Shown: positions 25,272 to 31,043 of the stretch, piece after piece
How positions within the stretch are numbered: position 1 is the stretch's first letter
Layout of the letters: each line of letters begins with the position of its first letter
Position numbers and translations under genes: made by a program
Assembly (NCBI GenBank): GCA_012719345.1
Contig: JAAYAN010000094.1
Location: 1 to 35,518 of the forward strand
DNA length: 35,518 nt
From: Ignavibacteria bacterium
GTDB lineage: Bacteria; Bacteroidota; Ignavibacteria; Ignavibacteriales; Melioribacteraceae
Direction of reading: 5' to 3'
Notes under the pieces: model-generated
What the model was told of the DNA's origin: nothing
Database searches by the model: none
What the model saw: only the letters and a program-made list of their open reading frames with translations

Positions 25272-26825
25272 TCAAGGCTGATGTTCCGGAAGAAGGAGAT
25301 CGTTTACCTCTTTAACGGGACTGAAAGTAATTTTAGGCACTTCAATAAAAATTGTAATCCAGTCCGCCATACTGCCGTTCCAAAGTCCGGGAAGTTCAAG
25401 AGCTTTCAATCTGCTGCCGTTTTTTGCTTTTTCCGAGATAAAAAAAGCATTTTCATCGCGGAATTTTCTTAAATCAAAAGGTTTTCCTTTAAAATCTCTG
25501 ATGCCGCAGACTAAATCGACAGGATTAAAATGCGTGGATTTTTTGAAAATTTCAAATTGCTCAGAATTATATTTATCAATCTGCGCGCTCTCAACAATCT
25601 GCAATGATACCGAATTATCTTCAAATTTAACCCAGAAAGGTCCTCCTCCGGGAGCACCCTGATTAAGCACCATTCCGCAAACGCGGATTGGTCTGTTCAG
25701 TTTTTTGTAATAATAATCGAGCAATCCTTTTGCGTCTGAACCGGAATCAGCAGGTTTGGGAATAAATAACTCTTTTTCAGCGAATTCAGACATTTCAAAT
25801 ATTTCATCTTTTTTGAGAGTTCCGCCGGCAATTTTGCGAAGGTAATTAAAAATACGCGACTGCGCTTTTATCAAATTTCCCGAAAGAAGTTTTTTATAAA
25901 GAATTGTAGAGCCTAATACTTTTTCCGTCACAACATTGTCGATGTTCTTAATAAAAACAATATCGCCGTTTATTTCCATCAGATTTTCCAGCAAGGCTCC
26001 GTGTCCGCCGGGGCGGAATAAAAGATTGCCGTTTTCATCCAAAAAAAGTTCATTGTTTATAGCAACGGCTATTGTATCTGTACTTTTTTTCTGCACCGAA
26101 TAAGTAACGCTAAACTTATATCCGCCGCTTTCGTAAAAAGGCAGGACTTTTTCAACGTGGCTTTCAATTTCTCCGATGTGCTCGGGAGAGATTGTAAAAT
26201 GAATGTTTATTTTTCCTTTCGAATTGGAGGAATACCCGATTGCTTCGGCAAGGTGTTCTTCGAGAGCAGTGCGGACTTGAGTTTCGTATTTGTGAAATTT
26301 TACCAGAGCTTTTGGTTTATCGGAATAATTTAATCCTTCGGGACTTATTAAAAAGTCGAGCAGATCATCGTATTCGATGTAAACTTTCCGAGAACCCTTT
26401 GCCTTCCGGTGTTTTTTATATTCTGCAATTATATCGTCAAAAAATGCAAACCTGTTCATCTTCTTGAAAAAATCGAGGACAGGCAGAAACTCTGTTTTGC
26501 CATTATTTACAAAATTCTGAATATCTTCCAGAGACTTGAAATTACTGATTTTCCGGGCGGTTTCAAGCTTTTCGAACATACGGGTTGCGGCTCCCGATGA
26601 AGGGACAAATTTCATTATTCTTCCGGCATCGGCAGCTTCGTGGTGAAACGATACCAATTCGTCGAAATCATTGTATTTTAAAACTTTAATGCCGTCGTCA
26701 ATTGTTGCCGGGCGCACAAGACGTGCAGGAATAAATCCGCGCTTAAAAAACGAAAGCTGTTTTTCTATATCTTCCGGCGTTAAATTATGACCGGTTATTT
26801 GTTCAGTAATTTCTTTTGAAAACAA
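25272..26825 (-). CDS. DUF4301-family protein
   Basis: A 517-residue cytoplasmic protein of the DUF4301 family, which is widespread in Bacteroidota and of unknown function. Recognisable conserved blocks are KFVPSSGAATRMFEKL, FRPGGHGALLENL and VCGMVLNQGAPGGGPFWVK. The first and second blocks recall nucleotidyltransferase-like glycine motifs, but I do not assign an activity. The start is a TTG by fit to the family N terminus; the nearby ATG is out of frame and no strong ribosome binding site is visible, so the start is uncertain. Confidence 0.85.
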   Translation of the reverse strand: MFSKEITEQITGHNLTPEDIEKQLSFFKRGFIPARLVRPATIDDGIKVLKYNDFDELVSFHHEAADAGRIMKFVPSSGAATRMFEKLETARKISNFKSLEDIQNFVNNGKTEFLPVLDFFKKMNRFAFFDDIIAEYKKHRKAKGSRKVYIEYDDLLDFLISPEGLNYSDKPKALVKFHKYETQVRTALEEHLAEAIGYSSNSKGKINIHFTISPEHIGEIESHVEKVLPFYESGGYKFSVTYSVQKKSTDTIAVAINNELFLDENGNLLFRPGGHGALLENLMEINGDIVFIKNIDNVVTEKVLGSTILYKKLLSGNLIKAQSRIFNYLRKIAGGTLKKDEIFEMSEFAEKELFIPKPADSGSDAKGLLDYYYKKLNRPIRVCGMVLNQGAPGGGPFWVKFEDNSVSLQIVESAQIDKYNSEQFEIFKKSTHFNPVDLVCGIRDFKGKPFDLRKFRDENAFFISEKAKNGSRLKALELPGLWNGSMADWITIFIEVPKITFSPVKEVNDLLLPEHQP

Positions 26826-26889: not shown

Positions 26890-27555
26890 TTAAATTTCTG
26901 CTTTAATTATTCTTATTAATTCTCTGATTATAACAGCCGTTATACCCCAGATTTTGTAACCGTTGAAGTTGAAAACATAAACTTTGAATTTTCTGCCTTC
27001 TCTTGGTTCGCCGTAAATTGACGGGAGTCCGAGTTTTTTAACAGGCAGAAGCTCTATTTTCTTACCGGTCTCATCAAAATAATAAGGCTCAATTAATGTG
27101 CGGGAATAATAAACTTCGGGTTCGTTTTTTATAAAATATTCCAGCGGCGCTGTAAAAATGCTTTCAACTTCGTTTTTATCAATCTTGATTTCTTCAAGCG
27201 AAAGATCAAGAAATGCCAGAACTGGATCTATGGTAATTCCGAAAGGTCCAACAAGAAAATCCAATTTTCCGATAACCGATATTTTTGAAGCGGGAATTCC
27301 AAGTTCTTCAACTGTTTCGCGCAAAGCAGTATCAATTACATCCTTATCGGAATTTTTGTCGAATTCTCCTCCCGGAAAACAGATTTCGCCGCCCTGACGG
27401 ATATTTACTGCCCGTTTCTGAAAAAGCAGATGATACGAATCTTTAATCGTAATAATAGGAACTAAAACAGCAGCATTAAAATATTCATCTTTCCCGATCA
27501 TCGAGCAGGATTTGGAAAGCGAGTTTTTCAATTTTGAAATTTCGGGAATTTTCAT
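26890..27555 (-). CDS. Nudix hydrolase, CoA pyrophosphatase-like
   Basis: A 221-residue Nudix protein from the ATG at 27555 (an upstream TTG at 27561 is less likely). The segment LLFQKRAVNIRQGGEICFPGG followed by TALRETVEELGI has the UPF0035 pattern of NudL/Nudt7 CoA diphosphatases placed just before the Nudix box. These cleave CoA or acyl-CoA to phosphopantetheine and 3',5'-ADP. It is the last gene of the minus-strand unit with ParA, CHAD and kinase genes, 21 bases after parA. No good ribosome binding site is seen, so coupling is likely. Substrate is inferred. Confidence 0.87.
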   Translation of the reverse strand: MKIPEISKLKNSLSKSCSMIGKDEYFNAAVLVPIITIKDSYHLLFQKRAVNIRQGGEICFPGGEFDKNSDKDVIDTALRETVEELGIPASKISVIGKLDFLVGPFGITIDPVLAFLDLSLEEIKIDKNEVESIFTAPLEYFIKNEPEVYYSRTLIEPYYFDETGKKIELLPVKKLGLPSIYGEPREGRKFKVYVFNFNGYKIWGITAVIIRELIRIIKAEI

Positions 27556-27576
27556 CAGCAAACTAAATATTAAGTA

Positions 27577-28317
27577 TCAGAATAAAATATTATTGAATTC
27601 GTTCCAAAGTTTTTCGTAAGATTTAGCTGCCTTGCCCGACGGAGCAAAAATAAAAACGGGCTGCAGATGAATTCCCATCTTTTCGATATCAGAACAGTAT
27701 GGGATGAAACTGGATAAGAAATTAGAATTATCTGTATTTTGCTGCATAATTTCTTTGTGCATTTTCTTGCGAAGTTCAACCATCGAATAAAAAGTATAAA
27801 GGCTTTCGGGATTAAAATCCGAATCCTTCAGAAAATCATAAAGCTTTTCGTGAGTAAGAATTGATAATGTTGTAGGAATACAAGGCTCCGTAATTATATC
27901 CGCCGCATTAAAAATATTTTCCGAAAAAAGCGTGATATTCGGGGGACAGTCGAGAAAGATGATATCGTAATTACCTTTAAGATTTTTCAGCACGCTTTTA
28001 AGTTTTTTCTTCGATTTTTTTACGTTATCCAAAAGGAGATCCAGATTCCGGTACGAAAAATCGGAAGGAAGAATATCGAGATTATCGAAATCCGATTGTT
28101 TAATGTATTTTTCAATGTTTTTATTTTCATCAATCAGTTTGCCCGAATCGAATTTTTTAGACGGACGGATCCGGAAATAATAGGAGGTTGAACTTTGAGG
28201 ATCGAGATCGCAAAGAAGAGTTTTATAACCGGCGCGGGCTGCCAAGTAAGCAAGATTTACCGATGAAGCAGTTTTGCCGACACCTCCTTTAATACTGTAA
28301 ACTGCTATAATTTTCAC
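27577..28317 (-). CDS. ParA/MinD-family partition ATPase
   Basis: A 246-residue orphan ParA ATPase. It has the deviant Walker A KGGVGKT (10-16) with signature lysine K10, A' motif CDLDPQSS with D39, and Walker B DIIFLDCPP with D123. A lysine-rich patch (about 100-114, NVKKSKKKLKSVLKNLKG) could bind DNA. No ParB gene or parS-like repeat lies nearby, so chromosome or plasmid partition is unlikely. The GTG start is 3 bases after the CHAD-protein stop, and its AAAGG lies inside that gene, so the two are tightly coupled. This points to a role in positioning a CHAD-bound cargo, possibly polyphosphate. The C-terminal IPYCSDIEKMGIHLQPVFIF segment seems typical of an orphan ParA subgroup. Confidence 0.93.
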   Translation of the reverse strand: MKIIAVYSIKGGVGKTASSVNLAYLAARAGYKTLLCDLDPQSSTSYYFRIRPSKKFDSGKLIDENKNIEKYIKQSDFDNLDILPSDFSYRNLDLLLDNVKKSKKKLKSVLKNLKGNYDIIFLDCPPNITLFSENIFNAADIITEPCIPTTLSILTHEKLYDFLKDSDFNPESLYTFYSMVELRKKMHKEIMQQNTDNSNFLSSFIPYCSDIEKMGIHLQPVFIFAPSGKAAKSYEKLWNEFNNILF

Positions 28318-28320
28318 TTT

Positions 28321-29853
28321 TTAACCTTTGCCGAAAACATCATAAAATATTTTTATATTCCTCTTTTTCCGGAACTGAGAATACAAGATAAAAAATTCTT
28401 CTCTAACTTGCATTTTTCTTTGCGATTTTACGGCAATTAATCCTCCTACAGCCGGAAGAATTATTTTTGCAGTTTCAGGTTTAGGCCGTATACGCAAAAG
28501 ATAATTTGTAAGTTTTTGCTGCTGAATTGAAAGATCGTTAAACTCGCCCAGATTATCCTGAAGAGCTTTTATCTTGTAAAGTATAATATCCATTTGCTCT
28601 TCGGGATAAATTCCCGAAAAAAATTCGAGCAAGTACCTCAGCTTTTTCAAAGAAATCCTGAATTTATGAAATTGCTCGTCAGGGGATTTTGGTACAATTA
28701 TATCGCCTGCTGCAATTGTTTTTTCTAAAGCGGGAATTATTTTTTTTGCCGAAAGAGCGCTTATTTCTAAAAAAGTATTTCCCAAATCGCTTATGTTTTC
28801 GTTAACCGATTGAAGAAAGTCAGTCCATTCTTTTTTTGCTTTTACATATTTTTCGGAACGGAGCAGTCTTATAAGATTCTGCTGTTCTTTCGATCTTTCT
28901 TTTTTAAGATATTTTACAAGAAGATCGATTCCGGTATGCATTTTAAGAGGAAGAATATTTTTATAATCCGATTTATTCAGAATGTCCACGTCAATATCGC
29001 GCGATGCGTTGGTTGCGTTTTGAATATACTTAAAAGTCTGCCTGAAATGATTTTGCGTTTCTTTTGGGAATACTTTGTTTATTTGCGACAGAGCCGAACG
29101 CGTGCACCGGATTGCCACACGGAAATCGTGCAAAAATTCAGGATCGAGATTATTTTTAATTCCTTCTTCATTCAGTTTCATATTGGCAAACAATTTACCA
29201 TAAATTATCTTCATTGCCAGCCAAGCAGGCATATCCGCATCAATTTCGTATTTTGGTTTCGAAGAATAAGAGCCGGGAACATTTCCGGTTAAGGATATAA
29301 TTTTTTCTGTCCAGTTTCCTCTGAAAGGAAATATTGAATATTCGGAAGTAAGAGCTTCAATTTTCCCGGAATATTTCGAGTAACCTTTCAGCTTTTCTAT
29401 TTTAATAAACGCTGCTTTTACTCCGTGACTTTTTAATAATGGAACATACTCGTAAAGATGAAGCCGGCTTATTGTTTTCCCATCCTTGTTAAGAACTTTA
29501 AAAACGGTTCTTTTTTGTTTGAACCGGAAATTACGGCAAATTCTGCGGCAGCCTGTTACGGAAGATAAAATATTTCTAAAACCGGTTTCGGCAATATCGT
29601 CGGCAAAAACAATTTTCTTTTTCAATTTATGTGAAGAATATCCCGATTCCTGGTTTCCGAAATGATAATTGCTGCCCGAAAAAATAAGCGATTTACCGCT
29701 TCGGAAAAGCCGCCAGTCAAAAGTATCGAATATCGAAATTATGCAGTTTTTAACTTCTTCAGTTTCAACTGTAAAATCATCATCAAGATGATTGATGAAA
29801 AACTTAAAATAGCTTTTCGACCCGGCTAAATAGTAGTTATTTGTTAAAAACAC
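28321..29853 (-). CDS. CHAD-domain protein with degenerate CYTH-like N terminus
   Basis: A 510-residue cytoplasmic protein. The CHAD domain spans about 205-495, with the two helical signatures LHDFRVAIRCTRSAL (around H242) and FHKFRISLKKLRYLLEFF; CHAD domains are histidine- and basic-rich bundles that bind inorganic polyphosphate. Residues 1-190 resemble a decayed CYTH (triphosphate tunnel) domain: IFDTFDWRLFRSGKSL matches the usual FDTPDxRLxxxG block, but the ExExK strand motif is not evident, so catalysis is doubtful. The start is a GTG 29 bases after the kinase gene. Context places it between a sensor kinase and a ParA ATPase. Confidence 0.88.
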   Translation of the reverse strand: MFLTNNYYLAGSKSYFKFFINHLDDDFTVETEEVKNCIISIFDTFDWRLFRSGKSLIFSGSNYHFGNQESGYSSHKLKKKIVFADDIAETGFRNILSSVTGCRRICRNFRFKQKRTVFKVLNKDGKTISRLHLYEYVPLLKSHGVKAAFIKIEKLKGYSKYSGKIEALTSEYSIFPFRGNWTEKIISLTGNVPGSYSSKPKYEIDADMPAWLAMKIIYGKLFANMKLNEEGIKNNLDPEFLHDFRVAIRCTRSALSQINKVFPKETQNHFRQTFKYIQNATNASRDIDVDILNKSDYKNILPLKMHTGIDLLVKYLKKERSKEQQNLIRLLRSEKYVKAKKEWTDFLQSVNENISDLGNTFLEISALSAKKIIPALEKTIAAGDIIVPKSPDEQFHKFRISLKKLRYLLEFFSGIYPEEQMDIILYKIKALQDNLGEFNDLSIQQQKLTNYLLRIRPKPETAKIILPAVGGLIAVKSQRKMQVREEFFILYSQFRKKRNIKIFYDVFGKG

Positions 29854-29882
29854 TTAAAGTTATATTTTGTTTTGAAATAATT

Positions 29883-31043
29883 TCAGCTTTTCGAAAATAT
29901 TACTTTGAAAGTTGTTCCTTCGCCCATCGAAGTTTCAACTTCAATGTCGGCTTTGTTAAGAATAGAATATTGTCGTGTAAGCGCTAACCCCAATCCGTTC
30001 CCTTCAAATTTGTAAGGATAGTTCCCCTGTTCCATCGAAAAAGGATCGAATAAAGTTTTAATATATTCCTTTTCAATACCAATACCGCTGTCGGTAACTT
30101 CAAGAACAAGTTTGTTGTTGCTGTTCGTGTACGCTTTTATAAATACGTTCCCTTTTATCGAGCATTTAATGGCATTATCAACAAGATTTCTGATAATCTG
30201 CCAAGTTGAATAAGTGTCGCCTTCAATTTTTGTTTTATCTGTATTTATTTCAGTAATAATTTCCAGACCTTTGGAATCGGCGAGCTGCGAAAGTTCATTA
30301 TACACGGCTTCAATAAGATCTTTTATATCAATGGTTTCGATATGAAAATTGTAATTCTCGGATTTAACTTCAGTAAGATCGATGAACATTTCAACAGCGC
30401 GGGTAAGCCTGTTGCTTACGCTTTTAATTGATTCGAAAATATCATTGAATTCGCTGTTTTCTGTATTTTCAAATTCATCTTTTATTAATCCCACAAAATT
30501 AAGTAAAGCGCTTAAAGGAGTTCGTATTTCGTGTGATATTTGCGAAAGGTACTGATAACTGATTTTAAATTCGTTCTTTTGTGCCGGATGTTTTCCGTTT
30601 TGCTCTTTTCCGGGAACAAGCATCAAATCTTTTTCGTCATCTTCATTTGGCTGACCGGGAATTGGCAGCACTTTGGAAATGCTTAACAGCATATCGTTTA
30701 TTTCGAGAGGTTTACGTATAAAACCAATTGCGCCGGAATTAATAAACCGGTCAGTATCGGTATTATCGAGATGCGAAGTCATAAAAATGATTGGAATATT
30801 TTTTGTTTTAGGATTTTGCCTTAGTTTTTCGGAGGTTTCGTATCCGTCCAGGCCGGGCATATTTATATCAATCAGTATTAAATCGGGCAGGGTAATTTTT
30901 GCCCGCTCAACTGCCATTTCACCGCTTGTTGCAAAATCTACCGAAAAACCGTTTTCCTTTAAGTTTTTTCTGGCAAATTCTATATTTACTGTTGTGTCGT
31001 CAACAATTAATATTTCTGCCTGTTTAATTTTCTGCTGAGCCAT
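29883..31043 (-). CDS. Soluble receiver-histidine kinase hybrid
   Basis: A 386-residue cytoplasmic protein without membrane segments. The N-terminal receiver domain (about 9-125) has acidic D15/D16, phosphoacceptor D59 (LIDINMPG), T89 and K111. A linker leads to HisKA with H171 (ISHEIRTPLSALL), then an HATPase domain with N box RNLVDNAIKC, G1 DSGIGI, F box LFDPF and G2 GNGLGLALT. It would receive phosphate at D59 and autophosphorylate at H171, so it may be an intermediate in a relay. GAGG lies six bases before the ATG. It heads the operon with the CHAD, ParA and Nudix genes. No DNA-binding output is linked. Confidence 0.93.
   Translation of the reverse strand: MAQQKIKQAEILIVDDTTVNIEFARKNLKENGFSVDFATSGEMAVERAKITLPDLILIDINMPGLDGYETSEKLRQNPKTKNIPIIFMTSHLDNTDTDRFINSGAIGFIRKPLEINDMLLSISKVLPIPGQPNEDDEKDLMLVPGKEQNGKHPAQKNEFKISYQYLSQISHEIRTPLSALLNFVGLIKDEFENTENSEFNDIFESIKSVSNRLTRAVEMFIDLTEVKSENYNFHIETIDIKDLIEAVYNELSQLADSKGLEIITEINTDKTKIEGDTYSTWQIIRNLVDNAIKCSIKGNVFIKAYTNSNNKLVLEVTDSGIGIEKEYIKTLFDPFSMEQGNYPYKFEGNGLGLALTRQYSILNKADIEVETSMGEGTTFKVIFSKS

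Follow-up and report, generated by a model that had tools for sequence, protein, structure and literature searches.

Why should a ParA-family ATPase be encoded directly behind a CHAD protein? The question is raised by a 35,518-nucleotide (nt) contig of an Ignavibacteria bacterium (JAAYAN010000094.1; the whole stretch, to which all coordinates refer unless another locus is named, is called the window here), in which four minus-strand genes encode a receiver-histidine kinase, a CYTH-like/CHAD protein, a ParA ATPase and a Nudix hydrolase. Polyphosphate is the cell's phosphate store, and the original prediction, made from the sequence of the window, took the four genes for one module that positions or senses polyphosphate granules, with CHAD as the adaptor and the kinase as the input. 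We find that the conserved unit is two genes, CYTH-like/CHAD and then ParA, and their pairing in many distant bacteria suggests that polyphosphate granules are placed or shared out by a machine not recognised before.

Recurrence of the CHAD-ParA gene pair

With the window CHAD as a single query sequence, our scan of GTDB genomes gave no match; an alignment was needed as the query, and it returned at least 591 stretches with at least 544 confirmed relatives. The best 80 of the 544 were kept, and the adjacency and neighbour counts on these 80 loci apply to the nearest CHAD relatives only. A ParA of the CHAD-linked type is the next gene downstream, on the same strand, at 69 of the 80 loci (38 of 46 in Chlorobiota and 31 of 34 in other groups), and the gap between the two genes is 30 nt or less at 61 of 68 measured pair loci, with a maximum of 503 nt. 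The pairs belong to about ten phylum-level groups, named as in the records, where the names of metagenome-assembled genomes may be imprecise: Chlorobiota, Thermodesulfobacteriota, Chloroflexota, KSB1, Gemmatimonadota, Latescibacterota, Calditrichota, Verrucomicrobiota, Deferribacterota and Myxococcota, plus one genome recorded as "bacterium". Recurrence outside close relatives had been set beforehand as a first test of the CHAD-ParA idea, which passes it, and it is these adjacency counts across genomes that place the pairing beyond chance. The 11 remaining loci comprise two contig ends (L174 and L198), seven Chlorobiota loci with PPK1 in the place of ParA, and L143 and L189. At the seven (L132, L136, L137, L140, L148, L163 and L165), the CHAD gene that precedes PPK1 is of the same family; in G066, a second CHAD gene lies away from the ParA-linked one.

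The same adjacency appears when the count starts from ParA, as had been proposed for ParAs with an IPYCSDIEKMG-like C-terminal segment: CHAD lies directly upstream in 101 of 118 cases over three phylum samples, which share genomes with the wide scan (Chlorobiota in the case of the own-phylum sample) and give counts that are not independent of it. In the window's own phylum (395 genomes), 89 ParA matches in 88 genomes have CHAD directly upstream in 74 cases, elsewhere in 8, and no long-CHAD match in 7; matches below 147 bits were dropped here (the next score being 129) and two G366 fragments were merged. The other two samples were built around genomes picked as pair holders. Around G458 (57 genomes, G460 among them) ParA occurs in 16, with CHAD upstream in 16 of 16; around G464 (400 genomes, Chloroflexota by record) it occurs in 13, with CHAD upstream in 11, and the two other ParAs also lack the EKMG signature described below. 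Up to six ParA candidates per genome were scored in the own-phylum and Chloroflexota samples, and up to three in the CHAD-profile scan.

A ParA of the CHAD-linked type is present in 3 of 79 genomes of the family to which the window belongs. The CHAD gene is directly upstream of ParA in G008; in G024, the C-terminal end of CHAD is directly upstream of ParA at a contig start, and the N-terminal part ends another contig. Over 31 loci, ParA and CHAD distances are correlated (Mantel r 0.79, permutation maximum 0.21), a value to which shared organism history contributes. No ParA-CHAD fusion was seen, G075 (L114) being the one case inspected among the longer open frames; that frame, tried as a fusion candidate, proved to be an ordinary ParA of 247 amino acids (aa) when a start codon was required.

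In the window itself, the CYTH-like/CHAD gene, whose product is the proposed polyphosphate-binding adaptor, occupies 28321..29853 (minus strand, 510 aa; Pfam CHAD 8.7e-44), and the ParA gene follows after 3 nt at 27577..28317 (minus strand, 246 aa; Pfam AAA_31 4.5e-36, CbiA 4e-17). A candidate ribosome-binding site, AAAGG (28325..28329, minus strand), lies within the last CHAD codons, 7 nt 5' of the GTG start of ParA, a placement in line with the translational coupling of the two genes that had been claimed. The window genome has a single CHAD match; its chromosomal parA-parB locus (L045; parB recognised by eye) is separate, and two partial PPK1 matches, perhaps one split gene, lie on other contigs. 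A Ppx/GppA-like gene (by eye; positions 10866-11786 of L045) stands on the opposite strand a few genes past the chromosomal parB.

The CHAD protein and the linked ParA

A long-type CHAD domain, like that of CtCHAD, the CHAD protein of Chlorobium tepidum, lies at residues 196-510 of the window protein (28324..29268, minus strand). In the predicted model of this protein (predicted local distance difference test score, pLDDT, 90.7), residues 201-510 superpose on polyphosphate-bound 6qva with Z 36.6 and a root-mean-square deviation (rmsd) of 1.6 over 308 residues. The window protein keeps H242, R245, R249, R285, R406, Y407 and K429, which correspond to H253, R256, R260, R296, R418, Y419 and K441 of CtCHAD; the first six of these, which form the core, show no variation across all 82 sequences compared, the window's included. 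Conservation is lower in the outer basic patch, part of which the window protein has lost (R385 to I, K386 to P, K389 to E and R438 to Y). The CHAD encoded beside ParA in G155 aligns with CtCHAD without a mismatch save at the first aligned position; by this match, the protein of the polyphosphate-bound structure 6QVA is encoded beside a ParA of the CHAD-linked type. Judged by sequence and gene context, CtCHAD is an orthologue of the window CHAD. According to the text of PMC6537752, crystals show polyphosphate bound to CtCHAD, and mutants of its pore residues have lower affinity; the same text cites a shift of granules to the poles on CHAD overexpression in Ralstonia.

The first 190 residues of the window protein have no Pfam match, and their description as CYTH-like is nevertheless upheld by the model, in which residues 2-190 (29284..29850, minus strand) adopt a tunnel-barrel fold and align with CYTH/TTM enzymes (Z 13.5, 175 residues, rmsd 3.7 against 6yp4, VIA-align). 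The catalytic ExExK is missing from the first 80 residues of the window protein and is found in that region in 2 of 34 family members (L192 and L200); this N-terminal CYTH/TTM-fold domain is probably non-catalytic.

The linked ParA carries the deviant Walker A motif KGGVGKT (residues 10-16; 28270..28290, minus strand), which, with the signature lysine that marks ParA-type ATPases, is shared without exception by the 25 CHAD-linked ParAs that were aligned. Its model (pLDDT 90.6) gives TMq 0.90 to 8ray and 0.89 to 6iub (Soj/ParA), 0.84 to McdA 6non and about 0.75 to BcsQ and FleN; among NCBIfam models, partition ParA scores above BcsQ (81.2 versus 54.2 bits), all below the cut-off. A quick tree (75 rows) sets the CHAD-linked ParAs, together with Chlorobiota ParAs and those of families f25 and f50, apart from 18 Soj/other rows by a branch with 99% support in the Shimodaira-Hasegawa-like approximate likelihood ratio test (SH-aLRT); the outgroup came from the order and family to which the window belongs, the tree had no McdA-type sequences, and long-branch warnings were raised, including where one Soj/other row joins the rest. 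The f25 and f50 ParAs fall inside the CHAD-linked clade, and the CHAD label amounts to four changes on the tree.

This clade has a C-terminal signature, represented in the window by IPYCSDIEKMG (residues 205-215; 27673..27705, minus strand). Three forms of the motif were tried on 73 CHAD-linked ParAs: a strict one matched 50, a looser one 66, and E[KRQ]MG 72, the last being absent from all 36 Soj/other loci, a set that includes duplicates. Mean net charge is +13.6 (range 3 to 21) for CHAD-linked ParAs outside Chlorobiota (n = 35), -1 for the f25/f50 ParAs (n = 7) and -7.1 for Soj/other (n = 36); the basic charge of many members bears only indirectly on the ATP-dependent, non-specific DNA binding expected of a ParA-type ATPase. 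Positions 49, 73 and 218 carry basic residues in almost every CHAD-linked ParA and in few of the seven f25/f50 ParAs; the window ParA has Leu at 218. The claim that this is a ParA without ParB has held up: a ParB query taken from G031, which a very diverged ParB could escape, gave no match in the window (E 1e-3) and none within 4 kb of CHAD at the 80 loci (E 1e-4), so that the ParB gene that ParABS systems have beside parA was found at neither.

Polyphosphate genes, proposed function and alternatives

Any of PPK1, PPK2, PPX, SixA or a small CYTH gene occurs within 4 kb at 35 of the 69 pair loci (22 of 31 outside Chlorobiota, 13 of 38 within), a raw count without a random-locus control; this and the other neighbour counts are lower bounds, with 4 kb on both sides present at only 45 of the 69. 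PPK1 lies within 4 kb of CHAD at 23 of the 69 (13 of 38 in Chlorobiota, 10 of 31 in others), and the 31 non-Chlorobiota pair loci have, within the same distance, CYTH at 14, SixA at 12, PPK2 at 7, Nudix at 6 and PPX at 4. Pfam confirmed PPK1 in one Chlorobiota cluster and, as single examples at other loci, PPX, a histidine phosphatase (SixA-like), CYTH, PPK2 and Nudix.

We regard a polyphosphate-related function of the pair as very likely and granule positioning by it as more probable than its absence; the reading we favour, with a confidence somewhat better than even, is that CHAD and ParA form a system dedicated to positioning or partitioning polyphosphate bodies. In the mechanism we propose, the CHAD domain would coat polyphosphate via its basic pore, as binding by the orthologue indicates; contact with ParA would be made by the CHAD surface or by the degenerate CYTH-like domain; a Soj/McdA-like ParA would sit on the nucleoid as an ATP dimer; and CHAD-loaded granules would release ParA and, as a result, be spaced or be shared between daughter cells. 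The polyphosphate cargo would be made and trimmed by the products of the neighbouring genes, PPK1 included. The role of CHAD as an adaptor between polyphosphate and ParA, which the original prediction had proposed, fits the recurrent adjacency, the polyphosphate binding of this CHAD type and the polyphosphate genes near about half of the pair loci, and is what we infer from them.

Several observations weigh against this proposal. Contact between ParA and CHAD, binding of the nucleoid or DNA, and movement of granules enter it as steps that we infer. A long basic N-terminal tail is typical of partners of the ParB/McdB sort, and the aligned CHAD proteins are without one; the Chlorobiota ParAs (n = 43) are barely positive, with a mean net charge of +4.3; and 34 of the 69 pair loci are without a queried polyphosphate gene within 4 kb. 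The two genes also occur apart. Among the 90 CHAD-profile genomes, nine are without ParA, with G012 and G222 the strong matches among them, and G012, a genome with a CHAD gene, is one such case; conversely, six f25 genomes hold a ParA of the same clade and signature and no long CHAD, and the ParA of this clade can therefore work without the long CHAD as partner. Together with one f50 genome, these six account for the seven own-phylum ParAs without a long-CHAD match: a weakly matching CHAD, not linked to ParA, is present in three of the f25 genomes and missing from the remaining four of the seven, and PPK1 is present in all seven. Finally, deletions of CHAD genes in Ralstonia had no apparent phenotype, as cited in the text of PMC6537752. 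At the f25 loci L106-L108 and L110, the CHAD-less ParA adjoins or lies near a putative esterase gene (recognised by eye, and by Pfam at L108).

Readings without ParA-driven transport have to be weighed against the same data. ParA could serve a PPK1-CHAD enzyme complex, as a switch or in its assembly and at the expense of ATP, much as BcsQ serves cellulose synthase, with no movement of granules. PPK1 at a third of the pair loci speaks for such a role, as does the match of the ParA model to BcsQ and other ParA-fold proteins that do not act in transport; but BcsQ and FleN are more distant in fold than Soj/ParA and McdA are, the NCBIfam scores point the same way, and PPK1 was not found within 4 kb at 46 of the 69 pair loci, where ParA and CHAD yet stay together. 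We consider this role unlikely. We think it improbable, too, that the flow is reversed, i.e. that CHAD senses polyphosphate and tunes a ParA acting on the chromosome or cell cycle in starvation: in Pseudomonas and Caulobacter, polyphosphate does affect the chromosome and the cell cycle, according to the text of PMC9239181, and a half-CHAD gene stands upstream of a Soj-type parA in some genomes (see below), but the genomes have other ParA-type genes (in 10 of 10 tested, one CHAD-type ParA plus at least one further ParA-type gene), and the ParB query gave no match near the pair.

Of 58 genomes searched, the window's own among them, 21 have a half-CHAD gene (147-157 aa) upstream of a Soj-type parA and on its strand; such loci are L013, L014, L016, L017, L019, L021, L022, L024, L030 and L034. 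By eye, the operon reads folP, a cdaA-like gene, a glycosyltransferase gene (not in each), half-CHAD, a metallo-hydrolase gene and parA, with parB in L034. The chromosomal parA operon of the window genome (L045) has no half-CHAD. The 35 of the 58 genomes with a CHAD match have one CHAD locus each, the two matches in G024 looking like one split gene. Taking the pair and these operons together, we entertain, as a tentative reading a little short of even likelihood, that polyphosphate bodies are partitioned by a widespread, ATP-driven CHAD-ParA system, whose job was perhaps wired again via half-CHAD into the chromosomal parA-parB operon in the window's order; if this wiring is real, polyphosphate would segregate together with the chromosome there.

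It is highly improbable that the kinase, as a regulator of CHAD-ParA, and the Nudix hydrolase, acting on a product, belong with the pair to a single sensing module. The layout that prompted this idea stands: the open reading frame listing returns all four minus-strand frames at the positions first described, with the kinase gene (29883..31043, 386 aa; Pfam Response_reg 1.9e-26, HisKA 1.1e-10, HATPase_c 8.7e-20) 29 nt before the CHAD gene, and the Nudix gene (26890..27561, 223 aa; Pfam NUDIX 1.2e-9) 15 nt after ParA if it starts at TTG, or 21 nt if at the ATG at 27555. These short gaps favour a module, as do a PAS-kinase gene after ParA in L139, L141 and L142 and the Nudix genes, of another subfamily, within 4 kb at 6 of 31 non-Chlorobiota pair loci. 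However, neither the kinase nor the window Nudix was seen beside the pair in G008 or G024, the two same-family pair genomes, and homologues of the window's own proteins, which is what these counts cover, lie within 4 kb at 5 of 80 loci for the kinase and at 0 of 80 for the Nudix. On these grounds a conserved kinase-CHAD-ParA-Nudix unit is rejected, and with it the kinase as a conserved input and the Nudix hydrolase as a member; both are lineage-specific, local additions, the kinase gene being perhaps co-transcribed here without being a conserved partner. The coenzyme A (CoA) type ascribed to the Nudix hydrolase survives as its nearest NCBIfam model, CoA pyrophosphatase, at 99.7 bits under a 134-bit cut-off. 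A DUF4301 gene (25272-26825; Pfam 638 bits), 64 nt after the Nudix gene on the same strand, may share its transcript.

Comparison with known systems

If our proposal is correct, polyphosphate bodies would be a new class of cargo for ParA ATPases; the candidate ATPase-adaptor pair occurs, moreover, in a green sulfur bacterium with a solved CHAD-polyphosphate structure, which makes granule placement directly testable. Our literature search found no ParA assigned to polyphosphate granules, although preprints and most subscription papers were outside it and an earlier description is possible. A word search of the text of PMC10241942 gave neither "polyphosphate" nor "CHAD", and the word "ParA" does not occur in the text of PMC6537752, a check that leaves aside figures, including Figure 1B with the C. 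tepidum locus.

The claim that no system with this gene set had been described needs qualification: a folD-ppk-parA-CHAD cluster has been described in Acidithiobacillus (PMC6416229, PMC10892726). It likewise unites a gene for a CHAD or CYTH-CHAD protein with ppk and parA, but the texts read it in the context of cAMP/polyphosphate signalling or copper, with no positioning role, and call its ParA only a plasmid or chromosome partition protein. In searchable text, ppk-parA-CHAD clustering is described only for Acidithiobacillus, and without a granule-positioning interpretation.

The window protein resembles the CHAD phosins, i.e. CtCHAD and the Ralstonia CHAD proteins, in its long-type CHAD with the same core polyphosphate-binding residues. 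AlgP of Pseudomonas aeruginosa resembles the proposed system in its effect, spacing polyphosphate granules on the nucleoid (text of PMC9239181), but it is a histone-like tether whose ATP dependence is listed as unknown in a 2025 review (PMC13052382); in the portion of that review available, the table names AlgP alone for polyphosphate, the Caulobacter proteins are called not identified, and the question is asked whether granule localisation costs energy. A further likeness is to McdA-McdB carboxysome positioning and other ParA/MinD cargo systems: there as here, an orphan ParA-type ATPase with a deviant Walker A motif is encoded beside a probable cargo-bound protein, with no ParB found, and the window ParA model is similar to McdA (TMq 0.84 to 6non, as given above). 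The partner in the positioning system proposed here, however, is a folded CYTH-like/CHAD polyphosphate binder, and the CHAD-linked ParA clade bears a C-terminal EKMG signature of its own.

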